Assembly: GCA_016870915.1 (NCBI GenBank)
Contig: VFZY01000030.1
Span: 1-41,692, forward strand
DNA: 41,692 nt
Direction of reading: 5' to 3'
Source of the DNA: Acidobacteriota bacterium
GTDB lineage: Bacteria; Acidobacteriota; Terriglobia; Bryobacterales; Bryobacteraceae
Positions 1,543-9,517 of the stretch are shown here, in pieces. The position numbers were made by a program, and so were the translations under genes. Numbering within the stretch: the first letter of the stretch is position 1; each line of letters begins with the position of its first letter. The notes below the pieces were generated by a model. That model saw nothing but the letters and a program-made list of their open reading frames with translations, was not told the origin of the DNA and made no database searches.

Positions 1543-2406
1543 TCAGCTTGCCTTAGGCAGGCCCGCCACGGCCAGGGCCGGTTCTCCCAGCCACGCCCGG
1601 ATTCGGGGCAGCGCTTCGGTGGCCGCCTGTTCGCCCGCCGCGATCAGCGACTTGGCGTCCTGGAACCCATCCCAGCCGGTGCCCGCCACGCTCGGTGCCA
1701 GCACCAGGTTGGAGTGACGGCGCCACTCGCCTTCCAGCCGCTTCTGCATGATCTGGAAACAGCGGTTCACCACCCCGAACACACTGGTGGGAGCCTCGCG
1801 CCGCCCTTCCGTGGGCAGACACACGGAGATCACGTGCGTCGCACCCATGCGCCGCAACGGCTCTGCCGGCAGTTCCATCGTCATCGCGCCATCCACCAGC
1901 ACGCGCCCCTCATGCTCGATCGGGATGAACATCCCCGGATAGGAGCAGCTTGCCCGAACCGCCAGCATTACATCGCCCGCCCCGCGAAACACAGCCGGAC
2001 TCGACGTGATCAGATCCGACGCCACCACGGCCAGCGGGATCCGCATCTCCTCAAAACGGTGGCTCTTGAGCAGCTTTGTAAGGAACGGCTCCATGCGCTC
2101 GCTGTCCGCCAGACCCATCTTGCTCACCGTCCAGCGGGCCACGTCGCGGAACTTCATGCTGCCCGCCGCCGTTTCCAGTTCATCGGGCGTGCAGCCACTG
2201 GCGTAGGCGGCCGCCACAATGGACCCCGCACTCACGCCGCCAATGAACCGCACCGGAATCCCGTGCCGCTCCAGCGCCCGCAACACGCCCACATGCGCCA
2301 CGCCGCGGGCAAACCCGCCGCCCAACGCCAGGCCGATTGCCGGTTCCCGCCGGGAAGGTAGATGGAGCACCCGCCGCGAAGCTTTGGTCAACATCTCGCG
2401 CCACAT
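1543..2406 (-). CDS. Patatin-like phospholipase
   Basis: 287 residues with all patatin signatures: the oxyanion glycine loop LGGGFARG (about residues 28-35), the nucleophile elbow GVSAG with Ser59, and the partner aspartate in VLVDGA (Asp172). Patatins are Ser-Asp dyad lipid acyl hydrolases; bacterial ones act on phospholipids or as RssA-like proteins of unknown substrate. No signal peptide or membrane segment is evident, so it probably acts in the cytoplasm or at the inner membrane face. The start is supported by an AGGAGAGGG ribosome-binding site just upstream. It is convergent with the lipocalin gene (14 bases apart) and divergent from the PIG-L gene. Confidence 0.9.
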   Translation of the reverse strand: MWREMLTKASRRVLHLPSRREPAIGLALGGGFARGVAHVGVLRALERHGIPVRFIGGVSAGSIVAAAYASGCTPDELETAAGSMKFRDVARWTVSKMGLADSERMEPFLTKLLKSHRFEEMRIPLAVVASDLITSSPAVFRGAGDVMLAVRASCSYPGMFIPIEHEGRVLVDGAMTMELPAEPLRRMGATHVISVCLPTEGRREAPTSVFGVVNRCFQIMQKRLEGEWRRHSNLVLAPSVAGTGWDGFQDAKSLIAAGEQAATEALPRIRAWLGEPALAVAGLPKAS

Positions 2407-2506
2407 CGTCCCTCTCCTTCCCTCCGGCCGCGGCCGGCCTCAACCATACAGTGAATCCTGGGAGGCCACCGTTTCATTCCTTATCGGTCCCTCCCGAGGG
2501 ATCGTC

Positions 2507-2512
2507 TACACT
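2507..2512 (+). promoter_or_regulatory. -10-like box immediately before the PIG-L start
   Basis: TACACT followed by seven bases and then the ATG at 2520. No Shine-Dalgarno sequence lies between. If it works as a -10 element, transcription would begin at or next to the start codon. No good -35 hexamer is visible at 16-18 bases upstream. Confidence 0.35.
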
Positions 2513-2519
2513 GGGTTCG

Positions 2520-5054
2520 ATGTCCCATCGCGTTCCCGGGTTGCATGGTGTGCTCTGCCTGCCGCTGCTTTTCGCCGCCGCCGCCCTGCCTTCGCATGCA
2601 CAGAAGAATCTTTACGGTGCCGCCGAAATTCGCCAGTCCCTGGACCGTCTCAACGTCCTCGGTACGGTCCTCATGATTGCCGCCCATCCCGACGACGAGA
2701 ACACCGCTCTCATCGCCGCCTTTGCCCGGGGCAGGAAGTACCGCACGGGCTATCTCTCGCTCACCCGCGGCGAAGGCGGTCAGAACCTCATTGGCGCCGA
2801 GCAGGGCGACGAAATGGGCGTCATCCGCACCCAGGAACTGCTGGCCGCCCGCCGCATCGACGGCGGCGAGCAGTTCTTCACCCGCGCCATCGACTTCGGC
2901 TTTTCGAAGACCGCGGCCGAAACGCTGGATAAATGGAAGCGCGAGGAGGTGCTGGGCGATATCGTCCGCGTCATCCGCGAATTCCGCCCGGACGTCATTG
3001 TCCTTCGATTCTCCGGAACGCCTCGCGACGGACACGGCCAGCACCAGGCCTCAGCCATGCTCGGCAAAGAGGCCTTTGCCGCTGCCGCCGACCCCGCCCG
3101 CTTCCCCGAACAACTCACCACGCTCCAGCCCTGGCAGGCCAAGCGAGTGGTCTGGAACGTCTTCGCCTTCACCCCGCAGCAGGAAAAAGAGACTCGCGAT
3201 CTTCCCAACCGCGTCTCGATCGATACCGGTATCTTCGACCCGGTGCTCGGCTACTCCTATGGCGAAATCGCCGGCATGAGCCGCAGCCAACACCGCAGCC
3301 AGGCCATGGGCGCCCCTGAACGCAAGGGCGCTCAGCCCAACGCGCTGGTCCACGTTGCCGGCGACCCGGCGGCTCAGGACCTTTTCGACGGCATCGACAC
3401 CACCTGGAACCGCGCCCCCGGCGGCGCACCCATCGGTGAACGCCTCGCCGCCGCCGCCCGTGAGTTCCGCATGGAAGACCCGTCCGCCAGCGTGCCCAGG
3501 CTTCTTGAGGTCCGCCGCCTTCTGGACTCCCGCCAGGACCCCTGGAGCCTCCGCAAACGCGCCGAACTCGATGAGACCATCGCCCTCGCCGCCGGCCTCT
3601 GGTTCGATGTTTCCGCCGCCAGTCCCCAGGCCGTCCCCGGCCACCCAGCGCGGCTCAACGTGCAGGCCGTCAACCGCTCCCGCCTCACCGTTCGGCTCGC
3701 CAGCGTGGCGTTCGTCGGGGCGCCGGGCGCCGACCCGGTTTCCACGCCCCGGGATCTTCCCCCGAATCATCCCGTCAACCTCACAGTGACCTGGGCCGTG
3801 CCCCGGAACCTCAGCTACACCCAGCCCTTCTGGCTCAGCCGGCCGAAGGATGGCGCGCTCTACACCGTACCCGCCGCTGAGCGCTCCGCCATGGCCGGCC
3901 CCCTGCCCGTTCTCATGGCCCGCGCAAGGTTCGAACTCGGGGATCAGTCCATCGACATCACCCGCCCGGTCCACCACCGTTACGTCGATCGCGGCGAAGG
4001 CGAACTCACCCGGCCGCTCGAAGTGGTGCCGCCCGTGGCGCTCACGCTGGCCGAGAAATCCCTGATCTTCCCCAATCGCGACCGGCGCGGCATCGACGTT
4101 CAGGTTCGCGCCAACCTGCCCGGCGTCTCCGGCGCCGTGCGGCTCGATCTTCCCCCAGGCTGGACCGCTCAGCCGGCCTCGCGCCCGTTCACTATCGCCG
4201 GCGCGGGTGAAGAAACAACTCTCTCCTTCAACATCACACCGGCGCAGGCCGAAAGCCGCGGGAAAGCGGTGGCCGTGGCCATTCTGGACGGCCGCGAATC
4301 CAGCGCCGGCCAACTCACCATCCGCTACCCTCACATCCCGCCGCAAACACTGTTCCCGGCCGCCGAAGCCGATGTGGTGCGCGTCAATGCCACGCTGCTT
4401 TCCCGGCGCATCGCCTACGTGATGGGTGCCGGAGACGATGTGCCCGCGGCGCTCCGCCAACTGGGTGCTGACGTTGTGCTCCTCAGCGACGACGACCTGG
4501 CCCGTGCCGACCTCAGCCGTTTCGACGCCGTTGTCACCGGAGTCCGCGCCTACAACACTCGCGCCGCGCTTCGTGCCAACCAGCAGCGTCTGCTCGATTT
4601 CGTCCGCGCCGGCGGCACCATGGTGGTACAGTACAACGTCCTCGAGGGAGGATTCATGGGCGGCGATCCCAAGCTGCTCGAGAAAGTGGGCCCGTATCCC
4701 ATGAAGATCGGCCGTGAGCGCGTTACCGTCGAGGAGGCCCCGGTCACGTACCCGGATCCGCGCCACATCCTGCTCCGCGCCCCCAACGAACTTCGCTCTT
4801 CCGACTTCGAAGGCTGGGTGCAGGAGCGCGGCCTCTACTTCGCCTCCGAATGGGATCCTCAGTACGAATCCATCTTCGAATCGCACGATCCCGGTGAGAA
4901 CGCCCTCAAAGGCGGCACGCTGGCCGCGCGGCTCGGCAAGGGCGTCTACGTCTTTACCGCCTACTCCTGGTTCCGCCAACTGCCCGCCGGTGTGCCCGGC
5001 GCCTATCGCATCTTCGCCAATCTGGTGAGTGCGGCCAAGGCGGGCCAGCAGTGA
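2520..5054 (+). CDS. Secreted PIG-L (LmbE-like) family deacetylase, multidomain
   Basis: 844 residues. I chose the ATG at 2520 because it gives a clear signal peptide (LPLLFAAAALPSHAQ); the frame stays open upstream, but that part overlaps the promoter region. The N-terminal domain (about 30-260) carries the zinc motif AHPDDEN and the LSLTRGEGGQN segment of PIG-L/MshB-type enzymes, which remove acetyl groups from N-acetylglucosamine-type sugars. The middle contains beta-rich segments resembling a NEW3/NPCBM-associated domain (LDLPPGWTAQP). The last 220 residues look like a class I amidotransferase/ThuA-like fold (DAVVTGVRAYNT, VRAGGTMVVQYN). It is probably periplasmic. The stop overlaps the next gene by four bases, so translation is probably coupled to it. 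Confidence 0.85.
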   Translation: MSHRVPGLHGVLCLPLLFAAAALPSHAQKNLYGAAEIRQSLDRLNVLGTVLMIAAHPDDENTALIAAFARGRKYRTGYLSLTRGEGGQNLIGAEQGDEMGVIRTQELLAARRIDGGEQFFTRAIDFGFSKTAAETLDKWKREEVLGDIVRVIREFRPDVIVLRFSGTPRDGHGQHQASAMLGKEAFAAAADPARFPEQLTTLQPWQAKRVVWNVFAFTPQQEKETRDLPNRVSIDTGIFDPVLGYSYGEIAGMSRSQHRSQAMGAPERKGAQPNALVHVAGDPAAQDLFDGIDTTWNRAPGGAPIGERLAAAAREFRMEDPSASVPRLLEVRRLLDSRQDPWSLRKRAELDETIALAAGLWFDVSAASPQAVPGHPARLNVQAVNRSRLTVRLASVAFVGAPGADPVSTPRDLPPNHPVNLTVTWAVPRNLSYTQPFWLSRPKDGALYTVPAAERSAMAGPLPVLMARARFELGDQSIDITRPVHHRYVDRGEGELTRPLEVVPPVALTLAEKSLIFPNRDRRGIDVQVRANLPGVSGAVRLDLPPGWTAQPASRPFTIAGAGEETTLSFNITPAQAESRGKAVAVAILDGRESSAGQLTIRYPHIPPQTLFPAAEADVVRVNATLLSRRIAYVMGAGDDVPAALRQLGADVVLLSDDDLARADLSRFDAVVTGVRAYNTRAALRANQQRLLDFVRAGGTMVVQYNVLEGGFMGGDPKLLEKVGPYPMKIGRERVTVEEAPVTYPDPRHILLRAPNELRSSDFEGWVQERGLYFASEWDPQYESIFESHDPGENALKGGTLAARLGKGVYVFTAYSWFRQLPAGVPGAYRIFANLVSAAKAGQQ

Positions 5055-5176
5055 GCCGTGATATCTCGCCACCGCCCTTCCTCGGCTCCTGGGGCCGGGT
5101 CTACGGCGCAGTGCTTATCTATCTCGCTGCGCTTGTCCTCTTGTTCTGGCTCTTTGGAAAGGCCTTCGGTTCGTGA
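5051..5176 (+). CDS. 41-residue single-pass membrane protein between deacetylase and symporter
   Basis: A short gene starting with GTG inside a GTGA overlap with the PIG-L stop, and ending in a second GTGA overlap with the symporter start. The product has a polar Pro-rich head (SRDISPPPFLGSW), one hydrophobic helix (YGAVLIYLAALVLLFWLF) and a short basic tail. The two four-base overlaps fix both ends and argue strongly that it is translated. Small single-helix proteins are known next to some sodium:solute symporters, where they are presumed accessory subunits (compare YhdT with PanF); I infer the same role here. The alternative is that the reading frame is fortuitous, which the double overlap and the clean helix make unlikely. 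Confidence 0.75.
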   Translation: MSRDISPPPFLGSWGRVYGAVLIYLAALVLLFWLFGKAFGS

Positions 5177-6828
5177 AGCCTTTGGATTGGTGGGTCCTCG
5201 TCGGCTCGCTTGTCTTCATCGTGCTGTACGGCCTGTGGCGCAGCCGCGGCGAGCGCACGGCCAGCGATTATCTGCTGGCCGGCAAATCGATGCCCTGGTA
5301 TGCCATGGCGCTCTCCATCATGGCCACCCAGGCCAGCGCCATCACGTTCATTTCCACCACGGGCCAGGCCTATGTGGACGGCATGCGCTTCGTCCAGTTC
5401 TACTTTGGACTGCCGCTGGCCATGATCATCCTCTCGGCCACCGCCGTACCCATCTTCCACCGCGCGGGCGTCTACACCGCCTACGAATATCTTGAGAAGC
5501 GCTTCGACGCCAAGACCCGTACTTTGGTCACCCTGGTTTTTCTGCTTCAGCGCGGCCTCGCCTGCGGCATTTCACTCTACGCGCCCGCGGTGGTACTCAC
5601 TGTCATCCTCGGCTGGCCTGACCAGTGGACAACGCTTGCCATGGGCGCGATCGTCGTCACCTACACTGTCATCGGTGGCATCAAGGCCGTCACCTGGACC
5701 GACTTCCAGCAGATGCTCGTCATGATGTTCGGCCTCTTCGTCGCCCTCTACATGGCTGTACACCTGCTGCCGGATGGCGTCGGTTTCCTCGACGCTCTGC
5801 GCGTGGCGGGCGCCGCGGGCCGCCTCAACCCGGTCACCTTCACCGTCGATTGGAATGACCGCTACAACCTGTGGAGCGGCCTCATCGGCGGCATGTTCCT
5901 GGCCCTTGCCTACTTCGGAACCGACCAGTCGCAGGTGCAGCGCTACCTTTCCGGAAGCTCCATCGCCCAAAGCCGCTTGAGCTTGCTGTTCAATGCCGTG
6001 GCCAAGATCCCCATGCAGTTCCTCATCCTGCTGACAGGCGCCATGGTCTTCGTCTTCTTCACCTTCGAACGCCCGCCCATCGTGTTTCACCACGAACATC
6101 AATCGGCCGCCCGGCAGGCAGTCGGCCAGCGCTTCGATCAGGCCTTTGAAGCACGGCGCGACGCGGCGCTGGCTCTTGTGCGGGCCGAAGACGCCCAGCG
6201 TGACGGCCGTGCCGCCGAACTCGGCGAACGCAATCGGGAGTTTGAGACCGTCCGCAAGGAAGCCCTGTCTTCCTCCGGAGGCAAGGGCTTCAACGATACC
6301 AACTACATCTTTCTCACCTTCGTCACCAAGCACCTGCCCGCCGGACTGGTCGGCCTCATCATGACCGCCATCTTCGCCGCCGCCATGTCCACCATCTCCG
6401 CGGAGATCAACTCGCTGGCCACCGTGAGCATCGTCGATATCTACAAGCGCTTCGTCAAGCCCAGTGGCTCCGACAGTCATTACGTCCGCGCCTCCATGAT
6501 CGCCACCGCGCTCTGGGGAGCCTATGCGATCCTCACCGCCCGCTTCGGCCGCGGACTCGGGTCGCTCATTGAGGTGGTAAACCTTCTAGGGTCGCTTTTC
6601 TACGGAGGCATGCTCGGTGTCTTCGTCCTGGCTTTCTACTTCCCGCGCATCGGTGGCACGGCTGCGTTCATCGGCGTCCTCGCCGGCGAAGCGGCCATCT
6701 TCTTCTGTTATGGTTTCACCGCCATCTCATTCCTTTGGTACAACGTGATCGGCTGCGCGGTAGTCCTCCTCACCGCGCACCTGGCGGAGTTCCTGCTGCC
6801 CCCGCGGCGTCGGGCCGTCTCGCCGTGA
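5173..6828 (+). CDS. Sodium:solute symporter (SSS family)
   Basis: 551 residues, GTG start inside the overlap with the preceding small gene. It has the SSS pattern: an N-terminal helix then SDYLLAGKSMPWYAMALS, the FISTTGQAY segment, YTAYEYLEKRFDAKTR, IGGIKAVTWTDFQQ and a TDQSQVQRYLS motif, with about 13 membrane helices. A long charged stretch (about residues 298-375, rich in Arg, Glu and Ala) interrupts the helices and would form a soluble loop, as in other symporters of Bacteroidetes/Acidobacteria type. These carriers take up sugars, sugar acids or similar solutes with sodium. Coupling to a secreted deacetylase suggests that the carrier imports its product, but the substrate is not shown by the sequence. 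Confidence 0.93.
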   Translation: MKPLDWWVLVGSLVFIVLYGLWRSRGERTASDYLLAGKSMPWYAMALSIMATQASAITFISTTGQAYVDGMRFVQFYFGLPLAMIILSATAVPIFHRAGVYTAYEYLEKRFDAKTRTLVTLVFLLQRGLACGISLYAPAVVLTVILGWPDQWTTLAMGAIVVTYTVIGGIKAVTWTDFQQMLVMMFGLFVALYMAVHLLPDGVGFLDALRVAGAAGRLNPVTFTVDWNDRYNLWSGLIGGMFLALAYFGTDQSQVQRYLSGSSIAQSRLSLLFNAVAKIPMQFLILLTGAMVFVFFTFERPPIVFHHEHQSAARQAVGQRFDQAFEARRDAALALVRAEDAQRDGRAAELGERNREFETVRKEALSSSGGKGFNDTNYIFLTFVTKHLPAGLVGLIMTAIFAAAMSTISAEINSLATVSIVDIYKRFVKPSGSDSHYVRASMIATALWGAYAILTARFGRGLGSLIEVVNLLGSLFYGGMLGVFVLAFYFPRIGGTAAFIGVLAGEAAIFFCYGFTAISFLWYNVIGCAVVLLTAHLAEFLLPPRRRAVSP

Positions 6829-6877: not shown

Positions 6878-7621
6878 GTGAAACAGCTCATCCTCACCCT
6901 TCAGGATTTCCTCTACCTCGCCGGACGCGCATTCCGCGCCATTTTCCGCCGCCCGCATTACTTTGCCGATCAGTCCATTCAGGCCGACGTCATCGGCGTT
7001 GGCAGCCTCCCCATCGTCATGCTGATCGGCACCTTCAGCGGCGTCGTCATGGCGCTGCAGATGTCGCGCGCTCTGTCCACCTACGGCGCCGTCAGCAAAA
7101 CCGGGGAGATCGTCGCCATCACGCTGATACGCGAAATGGGACCCGTGCTCACCGCGCTCCTCGTCGCCGGCCGCAACGCCTCCGGCATCGCGAGCGAAAT
7201 CGGCTCCATGAAGGTCACCGAGCAGATCGACGCCATGCGCGCGCTCGGCACGGACCCCATTCTCAAGCTGGTGAAGCCACGCCTCATCGCCACCTCGCTT
7301 GTTCTTCCCCTGCTCACCGTCCTCGCCGATTTTCTTGGCATCGCCGGCGGCTTCCTCATCGCCTACTTCATGCTCAACCTCACCGCCTCCCAGTACTGGA
7401 CCTCGGCCTACCAGGCGCTCGAATACAACGACATCGCCCAGGGCTTGGTCAAGCCCTTCCTGTTTGCCGTCGTCATCTCGCTGGTCGGCTGCTTCTATGG
7501 CCTCCGCACCACCGGCGGAACCCAGGGCGTCGGCCTTTCCACCACTCAGGCGGTGGTTGTGGCCTCGGTGTGGATCTTTGTCATTGACGTTTTCGTCACC
7601 CAGGTCTTCGTCAACCTGTAG
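6878..7621 (+). CDS. mlaE: MlaE-type ABC transporter permease
   Basis: 247 residues from a GTG start. The sequence follows the MlaE/YrbE family closely: GTFSGVVMALQ, the EIVAITLIREMGPVLTALL segment, VAGRNASGIASEIGSMKVTE, QIDAMRALGTDP and the C-terminal GLRTTGGTQGVG loop. With about five to six helices it forms the membrane part of an Mla-type system that moves phospholipids between outer and inner membranes. It begins 49 bases after the symporter gene and is followed after three bases by the ATPase gene, so mlaE-mlaF-mlaD form one operon. Gene names are by family and order; MlaA, MlaB and MlaC are not in the window. Confidence 0.93.
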   Translation: MKQLILTLQDFLYLAGRAFRAIFRRPHYFADQSIQADVIGVGSLPIVMLIGTFSGVVMALQMSRALSTYGAVSKTGEIVAITLIREMGPVLTALLVAGRNASGIASEIGSMKVTEQIDAMRALGTDPILKLVKPRLIATSLVLPLLTVLADFLGIAGGFLIAYFMLNLTASQYWTSAYQALEYNDIAQGLVKPFLFAVVISLVGCFYGLRTTGGTQGVGLSTTQAVVVASVWIFVIDVFVTQVFVNL

Positions 7622-7624
7622 ACC

Positions 7625-8440
7625 ATGAGCACCGCCTCGGTTGTCCGCTTTGAGCATGTCAGCGTCGAGTTCGACGGGGATCTGGCGCTCAACGATGTCT
7701 CGTTCGACGTCCGTGCCGGCGAAACCCGGGTCATCCTCGGCGCCGCGGGCAGCGGCAAGACGGTTCTGCTCAAGGTGGCCATGGGCCTCGTTCGTCCCAG
7801 TGCCGGCCGGGTCTTCCTCTTCGATACCAATATCACTCACCTCCGGGAGCGTGACCTGTTCAGCCTCCGCTCCCGCGTCGGCATCCTGTTTCAGGAAGGC
7901 GGCCTCTTCGATTCCCTCACCATCGAGGAAAACGTCGCCTACCCGCTGGTGAATCAGGCGAGCATCAAGTGCCCGGCCGAAGAGGTGCTGCCGCGTGTCA
8001 ACCAGGCCCTCCAGTTCGTCGAACTGGGCCACACCCTCGCCAAGGTGCCCAGCGAACTCTCCGGCGGCATGCGCCGCCGCGTCGGTATCGCCCGCGCCGG
8101 CGTCACGGAGCCGCCACTGGTCCTCTACGATTCACCCACCGCCGGGCTTGACCCCATCACCGCCAATACCATCATGGCGCTGGTGGTCAAGCAGCGCGAC
8201 CTGCGCAACATCACCCCAATCATCGTCACCCACCGCGCTCAGGACGGCTACCTTCTGGCCAACTACTGCTGGAATACGGCGGAAAGCAAGGTGGAACGCG
8301 CCACGGCCGGGCACCGCGCCACCGAGCAGACCGAATACATGGTGATGTGCGAAGGGAAACTGGTTTTTCAGGGACCGGAAGAGGCCCTCTCGGCGTCTTC
8401 CGATCCATATGTGTCAAAATTTGTGAGGCGGAATCATTAG
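7625..8440 (+). CDS. mlaF: MlaF-type ABC transporter ATPase with altered Walker B
   Basis: 271 residues. Walker A is GAAGSGKT (39-46, Lys45), the Q-loop segment is FQEGGLFDSL, the signature is LSGGMRRRVGIARA and the H-loop is VTHRAQD. Walker B reads LVLYDSPTAGLDP, so the usual catalytic Glu after Asp169 is Ser170 (codon TCA at 8132-8134). A C-terminal extension after about residue 215 contains a charged segment (ESKVERATAGHRATEQT) before the final EGKLVFQGPEE. It sits three bases after mlaE and three before mlaD. It should power lipid transfer as a dimer bound to MlaE; the missing Glu could lower ATP hydrolysis or be compensated elsewhere. Confidence 0.92.
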   Translation: MSTASVVRFEHVSVEFDGDLALNDVSFDVRAGETRVILGAAGSGKTVLLKVAMGLVRPSAGRVFLFDTNITHLRERDLFSLRSRVGILFQEGGLFDSLTIEENVAYPLVNQASIKCPAEEVLPRVNQALQFVELGHTLAKVPSELSGGMRRRVGIARAGVTEPPLVLYDSPTAGLDPITANTIMALVVKQRDLRNITPIIVTHRAQDGYLLANYCWNTAESKVERATAGHRATEQTEYMVMCEGKLVFQGPEEALSASSDPYVSKFVRRNH

Positions 8441-8443
8441 CAG

Positions 8444-9517
8444 ATGCCATCGGCGCAACGGGTGAAATGGTCGCAGCTTCGGGTGGGGATTTTGGCGCTG
8501 GTCGCCATGGCGGTGCTAGCCGTCCTGATCTTCTACCTCACAAGCGGCAAGAGTGTCTTTTCAAAAGAGGTCACCATCTATACCTACATGGGAACCTCGG
8601 CGGTGGTACCCAAGGGTGCCCCTGTCCGCCTGAACGGCATTCTGGTGGGCAAGGTGGGCCAGGTGGAGCTCTCCGGCGACCCCAAGCCCTCCCGCACCAT
8701 CCGCTTCGACCTCATGATCGATGAAGCCCGCCTCCGCTCCATCCCCGCCGACTCGAACGTCATCATCGGCATGGAGAGTCTGCTCGGCTCCCGCTTCATC
8801 AGCATCCGCAAGGGGACCAGTCCCACGCCCGTCGCCCCCGGCGGCGAACTGATCAGCGGCGCGACACCCGAACTCGAAGACATCGTCGAGCGCGGCGTCA
8901 CCACCATGGATACCGCCCAGGCCATCCTCAAGCGCATCGAAAAGGTGATTGAGCTGGTGGAAGTGGGGAAGGGAACCATCGGCAAGCTGTTGGTGGACGA
9001 AGAACTCTACCGCCGCTTCAACAGCCTGCTGGGAGACATGCAGAAGGTCACCGGCGCGCTCGCCTCGGGCCAGGGCACCATCGGCAAGCTCATCTACGAT
9101 GACGCCCTCTATACCGATATCCGTAAGACCACCGCCCGCATTGACCGTCTCATCGCCGAACTGGAAGCCGGCAACGGAACTGCCGGCAAGTTCCTCAAGG
9201 ACCCGGCCGTTTACGATGAGACCCGCAAGAGCCTCGCCGAAGTGCGCGGCCTTCTGGCCGACATCAACGCAGGCAAGGGCACCGCCGGCAAGCTCCTCAA
9301 GAGCGACGAGTTGCATGCCAGTGTCAAGGCTTCCATCGACAGCATCAACACGCTTCTCGATGGCGTCAACAAGGGCAAGGGAACGCTCGGACAACTGGTG
9401 GTGAATCAGCAGCTCTATGAGTCGCTGAACGGAGCCACCCACGAGATGCAGGGCCTCATGAAGGATTTCCGGGCCAATCCGAAGAAGTTCCTTCGCATCA
9501 AACTCGGCCTTTTCTAG
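8444..9517 (+). CDS. mlaD: MlaD/MCE family lipid-binding protein with 34-residue repeats
   Basis: 357 residues. A short cytoplasmic start and one membrane helix (VGILALVAMAVLAVLIFYL, about 11-30) anchor it to the inner membrane, followed by the MCE domain (TYMGTSAVVPKGAPVRLNGI, LGSRFISIRKG) to about residue 135. From residue 175 there are tandem repeats of exactly 34 residues beginning GKGTIGKLL, GQGTIGKLI, GNGTAGKFL, GKGTAGKLL and GKGTLGQLV (residues 175, 209, 243, 277, 311), predicted helical, before the end NPKKFLRIKLGLF. MCE proteins form hexameric rings that pass lipids across the periplasm; the repeats may build a longer helical needle. It is the last gene of the mla operon. Confidence 0.9.
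   Translation: MPSAQRVKWSQLRVGILALVAMAVLAVLIFYLTSGKSVFSKEVTIYTYMGTSAVVPKGAPVRLNGILVGKVGQVELSGDPKPSRTIRFDLMIDEARLRSIPADSNVIIGMESLLGSRFISIRKGTSPTPVAPGGELISGATPELEDIVERGVTTMDTAQAILKRIEKVIELVEVGKGTIGKLLVDEELYRRFNSLLGDMQKVTGALASGQGTIGKLIYDDALYTDIRKTTARIDRLIAELEAGNGTAGKFLKDPAVYDETRKSLAEVRGLLADINAGKGTAGKLLKSDELHASVKASIDSINTLLDGVNKGKGTLGQLVVNQQLYESLNGATHEMQGLMKDFRANPKKFLRIKLGLF
8966..9478 (+). repeat. Five coding repeats of 34 codons in mlaD
   Basis: Each unit starts Gly-x-Gly-Thr-x-Gly-x-Leu/Phe and then has Asp/Asn and Leu-Tyr-type positions. Four spacings are exactly 34 codons, with no insertion or deletion between units. The DNA itself has diverged, so the repetition is held at protein level. 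Confidence 0.85.

Follow-up and report, generated by a model that had tools for sequence, protein, structure and literature searches.

The stretch of DNA analyzed here, called the window, comprises 41,692 nucleotides of an Acidobacteriota bacterium of the family Bryobacteraceae (contig VFZY01000030.1). It carries, between the gene for a large PIG-L (LmbE-like) hydrolase and the gene for a sodium:solute symporter (SSS), a small reading frame that opens with GTG 5051, its sole start codon, and closes with TGA 5174–5176 (Table 1). The 41-residue product, MSRDISPPPFLGSWGRVYGAVLIYLAALVLLFWLFGKAFGS, consists of a Pro-rich head followed by one hydrophobic helix. A preliminary description of the window, made from the sequence alone, had reported this frame with a four-base GTGA overlap at each end; its coordinates are exact, and the translation confirms the head-and-helix architecture. 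The upstream neighbour matches PF02585 with 60.7 bits against a cut-off of 28.2, and the downstream neighbour matches PF00474 with 158.9 bits against a gathering score of 22.8. The small gene is likely to code for a single-pass subunit dedicated to a distinct SSS subfamily.

Table 1. Positions of the small gene, its parts and its two neighbours in the window.
Feature	Position	Strand	Basis
Gene for small single-helix membrane protein, 41 residues	5051..5176	+	reading frame, tblastn, profile search, codon-position pattern
GTGA, start of small gene over stop of PIG-L gene (TGA 5052–5054)	5051..5054	+	
GTGA, stop of small gene over start of symporter gene (GTG 5173–5175)	5173..5176	+	
Conserved head of small protein, residues 7–20	5069..5110	+	28-member alignment: P8, P9, W14 and Y18 nearly or fully invariant
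Hydrophobic helix of small protein, about residues 17–36	5099..5158	+	extent by eye
Sodium:solute symporter (PF00474, TIGR00813), 551 residues, 13 membrane helices read from model	5173..6828	+	
Symporter residues 301–372, predicted helical hairpin (307–337, 340–368) between TM7 and TM8	6073..6288	+	model
Large PIG-L (LmbE-like) hydrolase, AHPDDE motif	2337..5054	+	family search

The small frame recurs widely at the protein level. Among 41 genomes of a relatives set that includes the window's own, tblastn finds it in 36 with E ≤ 1 and in 26 with E < 1e-3. Across the phylum, a profile of 28 sequences (the 30 tblastn loci minus L023 and L030) places the small protein in 108 of 396 genomes and 65 of 211 genera (E ≤ 0.01); a few of the weakest matches are probably false (L068, L070, L072, L081 and L082), and one lies at a contig end (L077). 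Of 296 Bacteroidota genomes, 81 have a match to a wider profile (E ≤ 0.001). In an alignment of 74 of the 135 distinct small proteins, picked by the author for spread, Y18 never varies, and conservation reaches 90 percent or more at W14 and L25; the acidobacterial head consensus, taken from the 28-member alignment, is DEPPP. One member, in L303 (genome G375, ~1064–1186), has no ATG, GTG or TTG across the 16 codons before the motif, and may begin at a less common codon or further upstream. The flanks of the helix carry 2.04 K+R and 2.02 D+E on the N-terminal side (14 residues), and 0.97 K+R and 0.25 D+E on the C-terminal side (5 residues), so that the topology deduced from charges is not decisive.

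Substitutions in the small gene follow the pattern of a translated sequence. Summed over 60 close pairs (70–97 percent DNA identity), codon positions 1, 2 and 3 show 384, 231 and 798 differences. The ratio of nonsynonymous to synonymous substitution rates (dN/dS) does not exceed 0.3 in 43 of these mutually non-independent pairs; it is higher in 11, and in six it is undefined because dS is saturated. The preliminary description had proposed a tblastn search in relatives and held that lack of conservation, or of protein constraint, would count against the gene; what was found is a conserved frame with an excess of third-position changes. The small frame is a conserved protein-coding gene under purifying selection. 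G+C-rich DNA is rich in open frames, 107 of at least 30 residues lying in the window's first 12 kb, and the frame could in principle be a non-coding accident of overlapping G+C-rich sequence. Conservation across phyla, with tryptophan and tyrosine columns nearly or fully invariant, and the third-position excess make such an accident next to impossible, as does the existence of Bacteroidota members whose coding stretch has only 38–48 percent G+C in the five checked. Cross-genome conservation and codon pattern together rule out a chance frame.

The linkage of the small gene to the symporter is biased in most loci, since these were found via the small protein; a symporter-based scan was made instead, in which named genomes were searched with a symporter alignment; the analysis kept the best 80 places out of at least 590. 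Within these 80 loci, the small protein lies no more than 200 nt upstream of the symporter in 75, and the exact four-base overlap between the two genes is found in 69. The same overlap occurs at 144 of 194 distinct junctions, most of which were found via the small protein. The 80 loci span Acidobacteria (with Aminicenantes), Bacteroidetes, Ignavibacteria and Calditrichia; as Ignavibacteriota and Calditrichota are separate phyla in the NCBI taxonomy, this amounts to four phyla, with Calditrichota represented by a single locus, L129. Five loci lack the adjacency. In three, the small gene lies further upstream: two acidobacterial genomes have a CutC-like gene between it and the symporter (L100, seen at L211:3425–4114, and L122, 2812–3504; 89–90 bits, under the cut-off of 311), and in L118 it lies 3.7 kb upstream, with bshC-bshB1-bshA in between, as seen in L210. 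A fourth, L164, is uninformative on the small gene because its 4-kb contig starts with bshA, and the fifth is without it.

The pairing is also selective within genomes. The small protein is present in all 12 named genomes searched, with a single match in 11; the second match of the remaining genome, G439, is short, weak and interrupted by an internal stop. Nine of the 12 have 6–19 PF00474 matches each (E ≤ 1e-20; some carriers counted twice). Beside paralogous symporters, the small protein was found in none of the 34 loci examined, 30 from those nine genomes and four around the other symporters of the window's genome. Two of these paralogue loci, L197 and L205, carry a TIGR03647 small subunit instead, and three have other short hydrophobic frames nearby, two of which were scanned and match no family. 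A search of a plasmid collection returned no symporter relative at E ≤ 1e-50. The small gene is thus strongly linked to one symporter subfamily in four phyla, and to none of the paralogues examined. Its place directly before one kind of symporter in four phyla makes it most likely a functional component of the importer that has so far been overlooked. As a separate observation, a similar small helix protein is encoded on the minus strand of L078 (~2738–2563; profile E 1.7e-7), where its gene overlaps by ATGA that of an apparent FecCD/BtuC-type ABC permease, not an SSS, as judged from the translation by eye.

The PIG-L gene is a less constant companion. In 56 of the 80 loci it is found upstream of the small gene in the same orientation, the matched part ending no more than 350 nt from the small gene's stop in 49 of these, and was undetected in 24, a count made with a single query and flanks of up to 3.5 kb, which misses distant PIG-L genes, as is known for L118. 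These 56 loci, and two others in which the small gene adjoins PIG-L and is three genes away from the symporter (L210 and L303), are what would be expected if the small protein served the hydrolase, for example by anchoring it in the membrane or by bridging it to the carrier. We find this very unlikely, as 19 of the 24 loci without detectable PIG-L still have the small gene immediately 5' of the symporter, and in six acidobacterial loci (L293–L296, L298 and L306) PIG-L lies 3' of the symporter while the small gene still precedes the carrier. The small protein therefore tracks the symporter more, and the symporter is the likelier partner. The preliminary description had read the three genes as a fully coupled unit suggestive of a dedicated uptake machine; the symporter side of the overlaps and the pairing of small gene and symporter hold, whereas the PIG-L side varies, and in L210 and L303 it is the PIG-L gene with which the small gene stays.

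The structural model of the symporter (AlphaFold2; mean predicted local distance difference test score, pLDDT, 93.1; predicted template modelling score, pTM, 0.90) is read by the author as 13 membrane helices. Foldseek returns SiaT first and then SGLT2–MAP17, and the TM-score of 0.89 against SiaT (5nva, by target length) identifies the SSS fold. Between transmembrane helices 7 and 8 (TM7 and TM8), the model has an extra hairpin of about 62 residues (307–368) that divides the PF00474 match. Given the usual SSS topology, this predicted hairpin would be extracytoplasmic, and it may be where the PIG-L enzyme, if secreted, docks.

Coevolution of the small protein with the symporter was analyzed on 184 pairs with a symporter part of at least 440 residues (effective number 149). 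A separate alignment comprised 64 of the 80 loci and the window. In mean-field coupling, L22 of the small protein forms the two strongest inter-protein pairs, with L82 and I85 of symporter TM2, and the scores are comparable to those of top pairs inside the symporter. Tested directly by within-clade shuffling, L22–L82 has a z of 6.9 and L22–I85 a z of 8.0; in a shuffle test over all 12,388 pairs with 19 clades, the two have ranks 13 and 5. These couplings point weakly to TM2, at positions 82 and 85, as a candidate contact of the small helix.

The preliminary description had proposed an accessory subunit of the carrier, and this is still the best reading, drawn from the cross-phylum linkage to SSS genes, with physical association putative. 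We infer physical binding, translational coupling and a requirement for transport. Translational coupling of the two genes would ensure that helix and carrier are made together; the helix would then probably pack on the outside of the 13-helix carrier, where it could stabilize the carrier or tune the transport cycle, as MAP17 does on human SGLT2. The small protein could also be a regulator or assembly factor, acting through inhibition, insertion or turnover, and not a stoichiometric subunit. Small single-helix membrane proteins can regulate their partners, AcrZ being so described in a passage of PMC10903887, yet the fixed four-base overlap and near-constant pairing favour matched synthesis. 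These features are also compatible with a regulator, which we nevertheless hold to be unlikely.

A number of observations weigh against a dedicated subunit, in addition to the arrangement of L210 and L303. The 14 query symporters all come from genomes with small-gene matches, nearly all from adjoining loci, so that the 80-locus scan is only partly independent. One same-subfamily symporter, in L097 (3501–5192), lacks the small gene; it adjoins a KDPG aldolase gene and a KDG-kinase-like gene, and the same Bryobacteraceae genome has a second subfamily symporter, in L099, with a normal small-gene pair. In none of 220 paired loci were the small protein and the symporter found naturally fused. Constraint is not uniform: the window's small gene has a dN/dS of 0.62 against its closest partner, L088, and the pair L044/L050 reaches 1.11, the highest of the 60. 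The coupling signal is scattered, with many pairs on other helices scoring equally high; with 73 clades, L22–L82 and L22–I85 drop to ranks 35 and 73, and TM2 columns account for 8 of the top 100 pairs, compared with 19 of 326 symporter columns.

The neighbours of the small gene offer leads to the cargo of the importer. The true start of the PIG-L frame is likely ATG 2520, giving a protein of 844 residues whose N-terminus resembles a signal peptide by eye. Its domain is nearest the thiol enzymes Mca, MshB and BshB, with weak matches to TIGR03446, TIGR03445, TIGR04001 and TIGR04000 that lie far under all curated cut-offs (46.7 versus 277 bits for Mca). The window enzyme shares the PIG-L domain with Mca/Bca and BshB1 and differs from them in its size of ~840 residues, its signal-peptide-like start and its long C-terminal part. 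The term ‘sugar deacetylase’, used in the preliminary description, is therefore too specific for an enzyme nearest Mca/MshB/BshB and found in a bsh context in some Acidobacteriota. The genes that follow the symporter in the window (6878–9517) are MlaE/MlaF/MlaD-like lipid transport genes.

This bsh context is most evident in three acidobacterial loci. The genes of L210 (Aminicenantes) run PIG-L, small gene, bshC, bshB1, bshA and symporter, with all three bsh genes over their NCBIfam cut-offs; L303 has the same order (small frame from the phylum profile search, other genes by similarity), and L297 has a contiguous run of bshC, bshB1, bshA, PIG-L, small gene and symporter (names by similarity to L210). 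Passages of PMC4101496 describe Mca and Bca as cleaving thiol conjugates, with glucosamine-inositol (GlcN-Ins) recycled and glucosamine-malate presumably so. A secreted enzyme of the Mca/Bca superfamily beside a sodium importer would fit glucosamine-malate salvage. On weaker grounds than those for the subunit, the PIG-L enzyme, where present, is probably secreted and would cleave an N-acylglucosamine compound on the far side of the cytoplasmic membrane; the symporter would import the product of this cleavage, perhaps glucosamine-malate from bacillithiol or its conjugates. The interleaved or abutting bsh genes of the three loci suggest this salvage as a hypothesis, and a bacillithiol-derived cargo is possible, if doubtful. 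The full scheme, in which bacillithiol is salvaged outside the cytoplasmic membrane by a PIG-L amidase that frees glucosamine-malate, a symporter that imports it, a hairpin that docks the enzyme and a 41-residue protein that acts in trans as an SGLT-type fourteenth helix, is decidedly unlikely to hold in all its parts. The salvage reading, if it holds, offers a testable suggestion as to how products of bacillithiol breakdown are recovered by Gram-negative bacteria.

We lean slightly towards a cargo that has nothing to do with bacillithiol, for example a sugar acid or an amino sugar, with the bsh neighbourhood a lineage-specific accident; this alternative concerns the cargo alone and is compatible with a subunit role for the small protein. 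BshC was found in none of the 20 small-positive genomes of family f26 (E ≤ 1e-20), and family f4, in which BshC is common, has no genome among the small-positive ones. Small gene and bshC lie no more than 10 kb apart in 18 of the 49 genomes with both places listed, 15 of the 18 being from family f24; in this family, the two loci checked have mutL separating bshC from the module. The distribution of BshC in f26 and f4, the intervening mutL and the metabolic genes beside the small-less carrier of L097 count against the bacillithiol cargo, for which the bshC-bshB1-bshA genes, interleaved in L210 and L303 and contiguous in L297, speak together with the resemblance of the PIG-L domain to thiol enzymes, far under their cut-offs though it is. 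In the window's genome, BshC is encoded on another contig. Among the 20 Bacteroidota loci fetched, one (L286) has a bshB1-like gene, ~4 kb off; BshC is present in 291 of 296 Bacteroidota genomes, so that its co-occurrence with the small gene there is uninformative.

The small protein matches no family in the collections checked. Scans of the 74 members against Pfam and NCBIfam gave scattered weak matches (best E 0.00096, for one member) and no family, and rule out the known small-subunit families; the window protein itself has no NCBIfam family at E ≤ 1. The family profile has no match at E ≤ 10 among all PDB sequences, which include SGLT–MAP17 complexes. Among the papers listed by literature searches, titles and abstract openings showed none on the small protein, and a term search of the main text of a 2021 review of prokaryotic SSS (PMC7918813) gave no hit for small subunit, accessory, DUF, MAP17, YjcH or single transmembrane.

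SSS carriers are nevertheless already known to have small subunits, TIGR03647 and, in animals, MAP17, from which the present family is separate and shorter. Like the new family, TIGR03647, which we take to be the DUF4212 sodium/substrate symporter small subunit, is a small membrane protein whose gene immediately precedes that of an SSS carrier. It has two helices and, in L197 and L205, 87 residues, compared with the 41 of the window protein, and its partners, which score 56 and 49 bits against the symporter profile of the new family, fall in another SSS subfamily. It is absent from the 11 NCBIfam families matched by any of the 74 members (E ≤ 0.1). The two Bacteroidota genomes of L197 and L205 have the new family and also a TIGR03647 subunit beside another symporter, and thus offer an internal comparison of both small-subunit types. 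MetS of the methionine transporter MetPS is likewise a single-helix small subunit of a LeuT-fold symporter; its partner belongs to another family, NSS.

Another known system is that of human SGLT1 and SGLT2, whose MAP17 (PDZK1IP1) is a single-helix accessory of an SSS/SLC5 carrier; according to PMC10803289, the MAP17 helix contacts TM13 of SGLT2 and stands within a fixed scaffold that also includes TM2. No sequence relation between MAP17 and the small family was found by the profile search of PDB. The window carrier, with its 13 helices, has no obvious counterpart of SGLT2 TM13 in the inferred helix numbering, and it is an attractive idea that the small helix might replace this missing TM13 in trans. 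If the small protein is indeed a subunit, one symporter subfamily, found in Acidobacteriota, Bacteroidota and relatives, includes a component that no family model covers, and the carrier may fail when expressed alone in a heterologous host for want of it. The pair would then be a bacterial counterpart of SGLT2–MAP17, tractable in simple hosts.

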